From: Niabella drilacis
GTDB lineage: Bacteria; Bacteroidota; Bacteroidia; Chitinophagales; Chitinophagaceae
NCBI RefSeq assembly: GCF_900101395.1
Contig: NZ_FMZO01000011.1
Location: forward strand, 1-64,000
Direction: 5' to 3'
Length of the DNA stretch: 64,000 bases
The notes below the pieces were generated by a model. It had not been told where the DNA came from. It did no database searches and was given only the letters and a program-made list of their open reading frames with translations. Positions 59,331 through 64,000 of this stretch are shown piece by piece; the first letter of the stretch is position 1; each line of letters starts with the position of its first letter. The position numbers were made by a program, and so were the translations under genes.

Positions 59331-59491
59331 TGTGTTCTTTATTTAAGGGGCTATCCGGCTTTTCTGAAACCCGTAAAATTAAGCAAATTCACAAACGGCA
59401 GGAAATATAAACCGGTAGTGATCCGCAAAAAAATAGCCGGCTGTTTATGTAATCCTTTTGTCGGCTGCATCCTGTGTACAGCTTTTATATT

Positions 59492-62400
59492 ATGAGAAAA
59501 AGAATCCTGCTACTAGCTACATTGCTTCCGTTTTGTCCGCTATGGGCACAGGACCGGCTTTCCGCGAGCCGTACAGACGGCCCGCTTACCGAAGTCTACC
59601 GCCTTACGGATAAGGAAACGGAACAGCTGCTCCTGGGGCCGCAACAGGCAACGGCTGCATTTCTGCATACATTGGAAGACCGTTACGAAACCCGGAAAGG
59701 ACCATTGAAGTCCCTGTCTTTTGGCAACTACCTCGGTGTAAAAGCCATTGGCAACCAGCTGCATTATACACTGATAGCGAACGGCAACGCCCGGCTCTCC
59801 TTTATTAACAATCAAAAAGAGTTCCAGTTCATTATAACGGATCTCACAGGGGCACCGGTAACGGATGCCCGGGTGTTCACATCCGGTGGCAAACAGGTTC
59901 GGTATCATAAGCAGGCGCATTTATATGAGGGGGCCTATCCAAAGTACGATGGCTACCTGAAAGTAATACACAAGGGCGTAACCAATTATTTTACCTATGA
60001 AACAGATGCCTTCGGCAGAACCAGGAACTTCAGGAAACGCCCCGGCATCCTGTTCCCGGTAAAGAAGCTCCGGGCGCTTTTTAACCGTAAACGCCGGCAA
60101 AAACCGGAGCCTGCAAGGTACAGCAGCTTTTTGGTGTTCAGCAAACCCAAGTATAAGCCTTATGATACTGTCAGATTCAAAGCCTATATATTCCCGGATA
60201 ATAAAACGGAGTTCCGGGACCGGCCGTTAGCAGTACAGCTCAACGGGATTTCAGGGCAAAAGAACCTGGCCGTGCTGAAGCCCTACCGCGACGGGGGGTA
60301 TACCGGCCAGTTTGTACTGTCCGATTCCCTGCAGCTGGTGCTGGACCGGCAATACAGTATCCAGCTTATCGATACGGCTGCCGGCGCAGCGGTCACAAGG
60401 GCATCCGGCACGTTCCGGTATGAAGAATATGAGCTGAAGTTACTTCAGTTTCATGTACGCACCGATAAAAAGATACAGTATCCCGGTGAGCCGGCGATCA
60501 TTTTTATGAAGGCAACGGACGAAAACGAGCTGACCGTTCCGGATGCGCGGGTAGAGATCACTGTTTGTACCCAGGCTGTTACGGCATACTATAAGAACGC
60601 TGTCTTTGTACCGGATACGCTTTGGAAGACTACCCTAAACCTGGACCCCGTAGGGGAGACGCAGCTAAGACTGCCCGACAGCATCTTCCCCGCGGCGCAG
60701 CTTTCCTGCACCGTACATTTCAAAATGCTCAACAGCAATAATGAAGTACGGACTTCCCGGCTACACCTGGATTTTGATGGACAGAAGAGGAAAGAAAAGG
60801 GAACGATCCTGGCCCGTTTTGTTAAGGACAGTCTTTATATAGAATACCGTGAGGACAGTGTATCAAAACCCGGGACCGGCTGGCTTTATACCAGGGCGGA
60901 AACGCAGGTAACAGACTCACAGCGGGTGCAGTTGCCGCTCGCGCTTCCGCTGGATTACCAGGCCGTGGATTACGAGGTAGTGCTGGATAACGGGGTAAGG
61001 GCAGAACGGTCTCCCTACCAGTTTGACGATGCGCTGGAAATAGCTGCGGTACATACGCAGAAACAACTGTACCTGGCAGTTGCCAATGAGCACCGGATCC
61101 CTTTCTGGTACACGGTTTTTTCCGGTGATGAGGTACTCCTGAAAGGCTATGGCACGGCCCTGGATACAGTGATCCGACACAGCAGCAGGCAAACGGCACA
61201 TTTTCGTATCAATTATTTTTGGAACCATGAAGAAAAGCAAAAAGAGGTAGGCAGTCTTTATAATGCCCGCGCCTTAATAGTGAAACTGGCAGCACCGGAT
61301 GTGATCTATCCCGGGCAGCAGGTACGGATACAGGTGGCAGTATCGGACGCCGATAGCCGGCCGGTACCGGGCGCAGATATTACGGCGTATGCACACACGG
61401 CCAGGTTCCATACACCTGCACCCCGGGTACCCTATTTCGGGCCGGATTTTCATCAAAGGGCGCTGCGTACATTTATCTTCGAAAGCGAAACGGCCGATGC
61501 CCGCGGGAACATCGGGATGAACTGGCCGCAATGGAGCCGGCAGCTTGGACTGGACACTATCGAATACTACCGCTTCACAAATCCGCAGACCCTGTACCTG
61601 TTTACAGAGCCCTCCCGGGACAGCATTACACAGTTTGCCCCATTTGTGGTAAAAGATGGAGCCATTGACCCGGTAAGCATTATTTATGTGGATGAAGTTC
61701 CGGTGTATTTTGAACAGGCCGGTCAGCTGCAGCAGTATGCATTCCGCATTACACCGGGGCCGCACAGCATCCGCCTGCGAACACCCGAACATGAAGTGTG
61801 GATCCGGGATTTTTATTTTAAAAAAGGCATGAGGACCGTATTGAGCGTACGGGCCGATACGCTGAATACGCAGGCTCAGGTAACCCGGCTTAAAAATGTG
61901 CTGAACCCGGTGGAACGGGACCGGCTGCAATCCTATTTTTTACGCGTGGAGGATAATTTCGGCGGCGGGCGGGCTTTTATACGGTATGATTCCACCCGTT
62001 TGCTGCTCAACCCGCCTGGCCAGGGTCTCCGCAAACAGGGCGATGTACTGGTGGGCCCCGTGCCTGCAAACCAATTGTTCTTTCAATCCGGACTGACCGA
62101 CCAGGCATTTTTAAAAGAACCGGGCTTTGTATACCGGTTCTCACCCGGTTTGATCCGCCAAAAGTCCTACCCGGGATTGTATCTCTTTGACACCATCCTT
62201 TCCGGGGCTAATGCCCTGAGCCGTAATTACAGCCAGCAGGTACTGCGCGATGAAGACGTTGACCGGTTGTGGAGCGACTTCTATGATCTGCGCAGCCGTA
62301 CTACACAATTGTTTTCTTTACGTACAGCCGCTTACGGCGCTTCGGGAAGGCTCCGGTTCTACATAGATTCGGCTTTCACCAGCCTGCTGCCTTATATTAA

Positions 62401-64000
62401 GAACATCGTGGTTACGGATCCATCGCGCCCGCATTTTTTACAGGTATATCGCGGTACGGCCACTGAATCTTCTTTATTGTTGCCCGGGTATTACAACCTG
62501 CTGTTCCTGCTAAAGGACAACCGGTATTTTAAGGTAGAAAACGTACAGGTGCATGCCGGTGGGATCAGTTATTATTCCTGGCAGTCGTTTGCTGTCCGGG
62601 CCGCAGATCCGTTCACAGCTTTGCTGGATCAGCATATCAAAGAAGTGGAGGCCCCCGGCTATTATCTGCCGCCCGTGCCCGATGCGGTCATAAGGTTGTT
62701 TAACAGATCTTATTGGGATCCCGCGGCATTGGACCAGGAAATAAAGGGAGTGGTTGTATCAAGGGACGGCAGGCCTGTTGCAGGGGCCACGATGGAAATA
62801 ATGGGCCTGGATCAGCAGTTAGGAACGGTCACCGATACCCGGGGCCGGTTTCAATTAAAAACAACCGCCAGGGGCCTGCTCATTGTTTCCATGGCCGGGT
62901 TCCTGACAAAAAAGATAGACGGCCTCAGTGAACGAACCGATACCATCGTACTGGAGCCGGCCGGAAGCCAGCTCAATGAAGTGGTGGTAGTAGCGTATGG
63001 TATCCAAAAGAAAAGTTCTATTGTGGGAGCGGTTACAACGATGGGGAGCAGTGAATTATCCAATACACTGGCCGGACGAGTGGCGGGGCTGAGACCAGGA
63101 AACAATGAACACATGATGATCCGGGGTGTTGGTACATTGCAGGGTGAAAAACCCCTGGTCATCTTGGACGGCCTTCCGTTTAACGGGGATATCCAGGCAT
63201 TGGATCCTGCAGACATCGAAAATATGAGCATCCTGAAAGATGCAGCAGCAACAGCCCTTTACGGATCAAAGGCAGCGTCCGGTGTTATCATCATTAAAAC
63301 CAAAAAAGGGAATACCGGGGCAAATGAGCAGGGCATTGTGCAGGAAGGCGTACAAACCCTGCGTACACGCTTTTCTGATGAAGGGTTCTGGCAGCCGCAG
63401 CTGGTAACGGATGAACAGGGCCAGGCATCCTTTACCGTAACCTTCCCGGATGATATTACCAGCTGGGACACACGCTTCATAGCGGTTACAAACCAGCGGC
63501 AGAGCGGATACCTGGAGCGTTCCATCCGCTCATTTAAAGCACTAAGCGCCAATTTTGTGTCGCCATCGTTTGCTGTAGAAGGCGATAGTATGAATGTGAT
63601 CGGCAAACTGATGAACTACACACCCTTTCCCGAAAAGCTGGTGCGCAGTTTCAGGTACAGGGATACCACATTGCGTAACAGTGAGCTTACCGTAACCCAT
63701 GCCCACCTGGATACGGTAATGATCGCTGCAAAAGGCACAGACAGCCTTCGTTTTGAATATACATTAAAACAGGCCAATGGATATTTTGACGGCGAACGCA
63801 GGAGCATACCATTGTATCCTGCAGGTGTAAAAGAAACCGCAGGCTGGTTTAACGTTTTACAGGGCGATACTATGGTGCAATACTGCTTTGAGCAGGAGAA
63901 AGGCACCGGCACCGTGCGTGCAGAAACCTCCTTGTTCCCGGTATTGCTCGAAGAAATGAAGCGCCTGCGGGATTATGAATACCTCTGCAATGAGCAGCTG
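59492..64000 (+). CDS. Alpha-2-macroglobulin-family protein with inserted TonB-plug domain (3' end outside window)
   Basis: The frame is open without a stop for 1503 codons to the window edge. Signal peptide (about 1-20, 'LLPFCPLWAQ'); macroglobulin MG2-type domain (about 209-320, 'SSFLVFSKPKYKPYDTVRFKAYIF' in parts) and further beta-sandwiches; a carboxypeptidase-regulatory-like domain (about 1083-1158, 'IKGVVVSRDGRPVAGATMEI'); a SusC-type TonB plug without its barrel (about 1160-1274, 'NEVVVVAYGIQKKSS', 'MIRGVGTLQGEKPLVILDGLP', 'ILKDAAATALYGSKAASGV'); then an alpha-2-macroglobulin domain (about 1286-1400, 'FWQPQLVTDEQGQASFTVTFPDDITSWDTRF' in parts). The last residues are CNEQL, a CxEQ thioester motif (Cys about 1499). 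It is probably a surface or periplasmic protein that traps proteases or binds targets covalently. The plug may let it interact with TonB or a beta-barrel partner (inference). Confidence 0.85.
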   Translation, partial: MRKRILLLATLLPFCPLWAQDRLSASRTDGPLTEVYRLTDKETEQLLLGPQQATAAFLHTLEDRYETRKGPLKSLSFGNYLGVKAIGNQLHYTLIANGNARLSFINNQKEFQFIITDLTGAPVTDARVFTSGGKQVRYHKQAHLYEGAYPKYDGYLKVIHKGVTNYFTYETDAFGRTRNFRKRPGILFPVKKLRALFNRKRRQKPEPARYSSFLVFSKPKYKPYDTVRFKAYIFPDNKTEFRDRPLAVQLNGISGQKNLAVLKPYRDGGYTGQFVLSDSLQLVLDRQYSIQLIDTAAGAAVTRASGTFRYEEYELKLLQFHVRTDKKIQYPGEPAIIFMKATDENELTVPDARVEITVCTQAVTAYYKNAVFVPDTLWKTTLNLDPVGETQLRLPDSIFPAAQLSCTVHFKMLNSNNEVRTSRLHLDFDGQKRKEKGTILARFVKDSLYIEYREDSVSKPGTGWLYTRAETQVTDSQRVQLPLALPLDYQAVDYEVVLDNGVRAERSPYQFDDALEIAAVHTQKQLYLAVANEHRIPFWYTVFSGDEVLLKGYGTALDTVIRHSSRQTAHFRINYFWNHEEKQKEVGSLYNARALIVKLAAPDVIYPGQQVRIQVAVSDADSRPVPGADITAYAHTARFHTPAPRVPYFGPDFHQRALRTFIFESETADARGNIGMNWPQWSRQLGLDTIEYYRFTNPQTLYLFTEPSRDSITQFAPFVVKDGAIDPVSIIYVDEVPVYFEQAGQLQQYAFRITPGPHSIRLRTPEHEVWIRDFYFKKGMRTVLSVRADTLNTQAQVTRLKNVLNPVERDRLQSYFLRVEDNFGGGRAFIRYDSTRLLLNPPGQGLRKQGDVLVGPVPANQLFFQSGLTDQAFLKEPGFVYRFSPGLIRQKSYPGLYLFDTILSGANALSRNYSQQVLRDEDVDRLWSDFYDLRSRTTQLFSLRTAAYGASGRLRFYIDSAFTSLLPYIKNIVVTDPSRPHFLQVYRGTATESSLLLPGYYNLLFLLKDNRYFKVENVQVHAGGISYYSWQSFAVRAADPFTALLDQHIKEVEAPGYYLPPVPDAVIRLFNRSYWDPAALDQEIKGVVVSRDGRPVAGATMEIMGLDQQLGTVTDTRGRFQLKTTARGLLIVSMAGFLTKKIDGLSERTDTIVLEPAGSQLNEVVVVAYGIQKKSSIVGAVTTMGSSELSNTLAGRVAGLRPGNNEHMMIRGVGTLQGEKPLVILDGLPFNGDIQALDPADIENMSILKDAAATALYGSKAASGVIIIKTKKGNTGANEQGIVQEGVQTLRTRFSDEGFWQPQLVTDEQGQASFTVTFPDDITSWDTRFIAVTNQRQSGYLERSIRSFKALSANFVSPSFAVEGDSMNVIGKLMNYTPFPEKLVRSFRYRDTTLRNSELTVTHAHLDTVMIAAKGTDSLRFEYTLKQANGYFDGERRSIPLYPAGVKETAGWFNVLQGDTMVQYCFEQEKGTGTVRAETSLFPVLLEEMKRLRDYEYLCNEQL

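Follow-up and report, generated by a model that had tools for sequence, protein, structure and literature searches.

A thioester alpha-2-macroglobulin of Niabella drilacis carries a barrel-less SusC N terminus at its predicted bait position

We found that an open reading frame at the end of the analyzed stretch of DNA (the window, i.e., the first 64,000 bases of a contig in the 6.1 Mb genome of Niabella drilacis) encodes a thioester alpha-2-macroglobulin (A2M) in which the N terminus of a SusC transporter, without its barrel, is embedded. Along the 1924 residues of the protein, a signal peptide is followed by A2M body, the N-terminal extension (NTE) of SusC, the TonB box, the SusC plug and the remaining thioester A2M (Table 1). 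The insert aligns at the bait position and the trap motifs are present. Furthermore, the insert is under purifying selection, its nearest kin are A2Ms of congeneric genomes, and SusC pieces recur in other A2Ms of the class. These bacteria have many SusC nutrient transporters in their outer membrane. We propose, with a probability of roughly 0.4, that the protein is a soluble protease trap of the periplasm and that its bait is a decoy, imitating the side of SusC that faces the periplasm.

Table 1. Features of the A2M gene with the SusC-type insert (window positions unless stated otherwise)
Feature	Residues	Position	Strand	Basis
A2M gene with SusC-type insert		59492..64000 in window; stop 65264-65266 (contig)	+	Frame reading
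Signal peptide (MRKRILLLATLLPFCPLWA, then QD), without lipobox	about 1-19	59492..59548	+	By eye
MG2-like domain	212-279	60125..60328	+	Pfam 20.9 bits, weak, under curated cut-off 32.8
NTE (carboxypeptidase-regulatory-like domain of SusC)	1084-1158	62741..62965	+	Pfam, models built here, fold
TonB box LNEVVVVAYG	1161-1170	62972..63001	+	Sequence; compared with Bt1763 box
SusC-type plug	1185-1265	63044..63286	+	Pfam Plug 46.2 bits, cut-off 23.9
Alpha'NT motif RTRF (R1291, F1294), corresponding to R732/F735 after the human A2M bait	1291-1294	63362..63373	+	Alignment
A2M domain PF00207	1299-1378	63386..63625	+	Pfam, above cut-off
Thioester motif CNEQ, after YEYL	1499-1502	63986..63997	+	Sequence

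The frame was read on the plus strand from the ATG at 59492, the mechanical open reading frame starting upstream of it with a GTG at 59474. The original prediction had joined a SusC plug and an A2M in one frame, and this frame is indeed unbroken past 64000 to contig position 65266, its last codon ending at 65263. Extending it beyond 64000, as had been suggested, showed that the A2M continues to a total of 1924 aa: the remaining thioester domain and the C-terminal MG domain are encoded there, with bMG10 (PF17973) at residues 1813 to 1910 above its Pfam cut-off. A frameshift or an assembly join between plug and A2M is ruled out by the single frame and by the same architecture in dozens of relatives, which also indicates that this is one real protein. 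A few orthologue frames are interrupted (L063/L081, L066/L133 and L069), probably through sequencing errors; for two of these three genomes, the stated completeness is low (83 and 72).

In addition to bMG10, CarbopepD_reg_2 (residues 1084 to 1166), Plug and A2M matched above their cut-offs, whereas the MG2-like domain that had been read from the sequence gave only a weak match. The SusC part stops before the barrel, as originally predicted: the SusC/RagA model TIGR04056 was matched only at positions 2 to 210 of 981 (200.4 bits versus a cut-off of 368.25). In a phmmer search against solved structures, SusC homologues aligned with residues 1083 to 1279, the best being 8aa4 (E 1.1e-31). The plug had also been called complete. 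It is present, and a SusC signature at residues 1241 to 1271 exceeds its NCBIfam cut-off; the plug is placed at residues 1185 to 1271. However, the Pfam match covers profile positions 21 to 107 of 107, leaving the first 20 unmatched, and the plug is shortened between the TonB box and LKDA. The distance between these two marks has a median of 77 residues in A2Ms (range 59 to 96; both marks found in 32 of 43 rows) and of 100 in SusC (range 91 to 123; 25 of 33 rows), making the A2M plug shorter by about 23 residues. As for the NTE, it also weakly matches the BamP model (E 0.012) and resembles in fold chain 9n2d_E of the Flavobacterium johnsoniae BAM complex; a link of NTE-like domains with barrel assembly is possible.

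Structure prediction, proposed earlier as a check on the plug fold, gave a divided answer. The NTE was well predicted in both of our models, one of the insert alone and one of residues 735 to 1924 (mean pLDDT 82.7, pTM 0.52). The second plug half was plug-like, with strands and a helix at a pLDDT of about 90 in the insert-only model and about 57 to 75 in the long one, whereas everything from the TonB box through the first plug half was predicted to be disordered in both (block means of about 26 to 57 and 39 to 52), the folded part beginning at about residue 1222. Using Foldseek, we obtained the SusC NTEs 9hfj and 6ytc as best PDB matches of the insert model, followed by SusC chains, and its second plug half superposed on the SusC plug 5fq6_B over 69 columns (rmsd 1.9, 43% identity, E 6e-3); the alignment behind this model included SusC rows, so that it is not independent of SusC. 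The folds nearest to the long model were the E. coli and Salmonella A2Ms, at the low global TM-scores (0.16 to 0.31) of a multi-domain chain.

The original prediction missed the position of the insert in the bait region, which is key to its function. According to PMC9352918, LNK and the bait region interrupt the MG6 domain of human A2M, and the bait is followed by the alpha'NT region (R732, F735), which threads the central channel and whose retraction upon cleavage is the proposed trigger. In a profile of the segment that follows the insert, positions 5 to 96 align with human A2M 735 to 826, and R2 and F5 do not vary across 11 orthologues. Because this segment aligns with human A2M from residue 735 and conserves the R..F pair, the insert appears from sequence to occupy the bait region. 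Only about a dozen residues separate its end from the RxxF motif, and the gap between plug end and the following segment ranges from -5 to 33 residues (10 to 20 in 53 of 72 members). Judging by its motifs, the trap looks intact. RxxF is present in 78/78 members >1800 aa, EXMY in 70/78, and the thioester motif Y.Y.C.EQ (YEYLCNEQ in the window protein, its C being residue 1499, window 63986) again in 78/78. This last count is partly circular, as most members had been found with two search patterns, one of which contained the thioester motif. RDDR and EXMY are named as motifs of the C-terminal MG domain in PMC4498604.

The window protein has several known counterparts in part. It is similar to the bacterial A2Ms ECAM/YfhM and Salmonella A2M (PDB 5a42, 4ziq, 4rtd, 4u48) in its fold, in Y.Y.C.EQ and in the RxxF after the bait, and its family mostly has EXMY in the last domain in common with them. 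However, its signal peptide lacks their lipobox, and where they have a short disordered stretch as bait, it has an NTE-TonB box-plug module. Within the family, rules detected an A-Q type signal cleavage site in 66/78 members (the window protein being among the 12 missed) and a lipobox-like signal in only 2/78. A link between ECAM and Pbp1C has been described (PMC4498604); among the recurrent neighbors in 76 loci, we recognized by eye no penicillin-binding gene. With SusC/RagA transporters, the window protein shares NTE, TonB box and plug in the same order, but it has no barrel, its plug is shortened and the module is embedded in an A2M. Like complement C3/C4/C5, it has a folded domain at the bait/anaphylatoxin position before alpha'NT, and it gives weak profile matches to C5; however, the inserted domain is unrelated and the protein is bacterial. 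In the open-licence literature, we found no description of an A2M carrying a SusC plug, among the matches listed, and no paper pairing a macroglobulin with a TonB-dependent receptor plug or a TonB box.

We then determined how well the insert is conserved. A scan of genome contigs based on the C-terminal alignment yielded 78 loci, whose record titles name Bacteroidota except for one contig. This contig (L132) is labelled Clostridiales, its A2M insert groups with Bacteroidales, and it is probably a misbinned or mislabelled metagenome contig. As members we counted the 80 frames >1500 aa, duplicate assemblies included (at least L065/L107 and L067/L151), and searched them with NTE and plug models built from 18 SusC sequences. 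The NTE was kept at the same place in 79/80 members and the plug in 72/80, while the strict TonB-box pattern was found in 58/80; outside the 250 residues before alpha'NT, this pattern occurred only twice in 135,973 aa. Pfam, run on 58 members, detected A2M in 58, CarbopepD_reg_2 in 57 and Plug in 49. The plug was thus undetectable in 8/80 members, the strict TonB box was missing in 22/80 (18 of which retain the plug), and both were missing in 4/80. Within the stretch predicted to be disordered, the conserved positions are the TonB box and an L.G..AG motif.

In the closest pair (L060/L061), dN/dS over TonB box and plug was 0.12; this is the one pair with a low dS (0.66), nearly all others having dS >1. 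Six Niabella pairs with dS >1 gave 0.13 to 0.21, compared to 0.05 to 0.12 from MG6/7 to the C terminus of Niabella orthologues. The dN of the insert is about 2 to 3 times that of MG6/7-CUB and 1.3 to 1.8 times that of the N-terminal MG part, indicating that the insert is under purifying selection, which is less strict than on the trap. We considered recent gene conversion from SusC and rejected it for the window gene, since the top-scoring matches of the module are congeneric A2M orthologues. Indeed, among 20 genomes, the A2M orthologues of three congeneric genomes were best (58 to 59% identity, 217 to 222 bits), the A2M of genome G004 came next (44%, 137 bits), and SusC-sized frames scored at most 127 bits, although some of them reach 49% identity, above G004. 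Trees were computed from 43 of the 80 members and from 33 of the 54 SusC loci, namely those that a pattern had picked up. When canonical rows were left out, the 43 A2M modules formed one side of a branch whose support was only 76; with six canonical rows, the A2M modules needed 4 changes, compared to 27.4 after shuffling, and a single SusC row (L215) fell among them. A single capture of the SusC module in the subfamily of the window protein is likely on these trees.

Beyond this subfamily, we drew 118 genomes evenly across the phylum. PF00207 was found in 49 of them, and 62 A2M loci were examined, with the NTE and plug models run on six frames of all 62 and the TonB-box pattern on all frames of L160 and one frame elsewhere. 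A SusC piece preceded the A2M domain in only 17/62 loci, namely plug or TonB box in 13, all in genomes of the class of N. drilacis or nearer, and an NTE-like domain alone in 4. Two loci with the NTE-like domain alone, without plug or TonB box (L216 and L217), are in genomes outside that class. The TonB-box pattern match of L162 (LAAETVLSM) is doubtful, looks like chance and was set aside in this count. Seventeen of the 62 loci did not match the A2M model built here and represent other A2M types. A further type is also represented by L246 (G078:C22), an open frame of 1512 aa that matches the SusC plug model ahead of its A2M domain (E 2.8e-35).

Shorter SusC elements were found in the baits of ETAFF-type A2Ms, taken as the 180 residues before alpha'NT. 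Our 35 sequences include loci from congeneric genomes and are not an even sample. Of three SusC patterns, the TonB box was present in 16/35 (including the doubtful L162), L.G[KRQ].AG in 10/35 and YG..A.G in 4/35. At least one of the three occurred in 22/35 (again counting L162) and none in 13/35, and the three patterns were absent from 39,339 aa of these proteins outside the bait stretch. In L043, L044, L045, L171 and L176, L.G[KRQ].AG comes ahead of the TonB box, so that the order of SusC is reversed; L174 has the motifs in the order of SusC. When 115 bait segments were compared to 33 SusC frames by BLAST, 97 of them produced local matches, 2988 in the NTE/TonB-box/plug part; the 15,662 aa of SusC barrel examined had none. 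On the tree, the captures in other A2Ms look independent. The genome of N. drilacis itself encodes a second, ETAFF-type A2M (G000:C25), which like the window protein has a thioester motif (YPYECAEQ) and a SusC-like stretch in its bait (ALDEVVVVGYGKQKKSAITGSVSRM) but which carries, by Pfam and the SusC models, no plug or NTE at this place.

SusC elements were also seen in the same genome in an M56/BlaR1-like metallopeptidase (L018:972-3230, G000:C29). It matches Pfam Plug at residues 443 to 490, and contains a second plug-like stretch, an LQGRVSGV motif and the TonB boxes LNEVVVVGYG and MQAVTVVGY after the plug stretches, all in a permuted, non-SusC order. No such motif set was found in the frames read of the other six of the seven M56 matches of the genome. 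Thus, two kinds of proteolysis-linked protein, A2M and an M56 peptidase, carry SusC pieces.

We therefore suggest the following model, in which we infer the periplasmic location, the cutting of the insert and SusC mimicry as the reason for its retention. Long ago, the bait region would have been replaced by the periplasm-facing module of SusC (NTE, TonB box and plug). A protease reaching the periplasm would attack the mobile, exposed part of SusC, that is, the TonB box and the first plug stretch; it would meet the same peptides in the A2M bait and cut there. Cleavage would then free the alpha'NT strand, the protein would rearrange and the thioester would capture the protease. Because only the periplasm-facing part is found, because motifs are kept in swapped order and because they are conserved within a stretch predicted to be disordered, what is selected for seems to be peptides and not a functioning plug, and the simplest use of such peptides at a bait would be to be cut by whatever cuts SusC. 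This is in agreement with the position of the insert, with the presence of the trap motifs and with a dN/dS well under 1; the disorder predicted for TonB box and first plug half is as expected of a bait, and other A2Ms have SusC patterns at the same place and none outside the bait. However, a folded structure is predicted for the NTE and for one half of the plug, and folded domains are poor baits. The decoy reading is also weakened by the higher dN of the insert relative to both MG6/7-CUB and the N-terminal MG part, by the members lacking plug, strict TonB box or both, by the 13 ETAFF-type A2Ms without any of the three motifs, and by the low frequency of SusC pieces in the even survey. Moreover, binding to TonB, or to some other partner, could explain the selection seen on the insert just as well.

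The main rival to the decoy bait is that the bait accepts almost any insert and that the SusC piece is kept only as spacer and bait, its SusC origin being meaningless. SusC genes being very numerous, such a piece would have been taken once in the subfamily of the window protein and several times elsewhere. Indeed, the genome has 90 SusC signature matches, the A2M itself probably among them, and the insert evolves faster than the core and has decayed in eight lineages (L118, L121, L127, L130, L139, L142, L148 and L152). Captures in other A2Ms also look independent, since placing the six canonical rows takes 5 changes on the tree, of which the starred branches force 3, although the branches of these rows are long. 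However, a meaningless insert would hardly show such a low dN/dS or retain its plug core at large divergence. Nor would one expect that only the periplasm-facing SusC part was captured, the barrel part examined never being matched, or that one and the same pair of short motifs persists, with its order exchanged, across several genera. We regard this explanation as possible but doubtful.

A different view is that Bacteroidota A2M traps may be wired to TonB transport, either TonB force or a freed TonB-binding fragment coupling protease sensing to nutrient import, by analogy with the anaphylatoxin domain of complement C3. Taken as a whole, we consider this rather unlikely. In its first form, TonB would bind the box in the bait, and its pull would unfold the half plug or retract alpha'NT, activating the trap or holding it in step with transport. 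In the SusC protein Bt1763, a TonB box (VDEVVV, given as DEVVVTG in one figure legend) comes after the NTE (Pfam 13715), and strains with this box deleted or mutated show a growth defect similar to that caused by deletion of SusD (PMC7782687). The A2M box equals this functionally tested one, it likewise follows an NTE, it is conserved within a stretch predicted to be flexible, and the box pattern recurs in the family as well as in the ETAFF-type baits. Docking onto TonB, which the original prediction had also raised, may occur, because a SusC-type box is present, though not universal (58/80 by the strict pattern). However, most members without the strict box have kept the plug, and no TonB gene was recognized by eye among the recurrent neighbors in 76 loci. 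We thus find a TonB-driven trap improbable.

In its second form, the folded insert would be cut out upon attack like C3a and act elsewhere, e.g., by occupying TonB and stopping import. In complement factors, a folded anaphylatoxin domain does lie immediately ahead of alpha'NT (PMC9352918), and the insert is predicted to consist of SusC domains with flexible parts between them. However, many canonical relatives keep short motifs only, which are too small for such a fragment, and this possibility appears very unlikely to us.

Finally, the original prediction had suggested that the plug might dock into or seal a separate barrel and so tie the trap to the outer membrane. The superposition of the second plug half on 5fq6_B and two loci (L090 and L129) with a plug-bearing frame of 981 or 936 aa located 13 bases upstream on the same strand would favor this, but with the plug shortened, its first half predicted to be disordered and no recurrent partner barrel among the plug-bearing frames (353 neighboring frames in 76 loci), we give it hardly any credence. 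Indeed, the search for co-occurring barrels recovered plug matches in only 5/353 neighboring frames, one being a second A2M (L094) and four being frames of 819 to 981 aa, which is about the background expected with some hundred such receptors per genome. Recurrent clusters in this sample were judged by eye from one representative each. The largest comprised 23 loci, many of them from Pedobacter, and no SusD partner gene was recognized among recurrent neighbors in the 76 loci. NTE matches occurred in 11/353 neighboring frames. These include, in L087, L088, L091, L093 and L096, a small protein of 238 to 251 aa with N-terminal cysteine pairs and an NTE-like domain, which adjoins the A2M gene and lies on the same strand and 28 to 88 bases away in 4 of these 5 loci. 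In Pedobacter psychroterrae, a tandem second A2M frame with NTE and plug matches (L094:8953-14745; 1921-1931 aa) lies directly downstream of the first.

In these A2Ms, the source of the bait can be recognized as a named and thoroughly studied protein that the cell itself makes; this is the case in many lineages, and more than one route appears to have led to it. The derivation from SusC makes the purpose of a bacterial A2M bait, and the proteases for which it is intended, directly testable, as either imitation of the food of an intruding protease or TonB binding. It also suggests what to seek in further Bacteroidota proteins that have a "TonB plug" but no barrel, the M56 peptidase described above being an example. 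Immune receptors carry integrated decoys; if the decoy reading is true, the A2M of N. drilacis and its relatives would be a bacterial counterpart of these.
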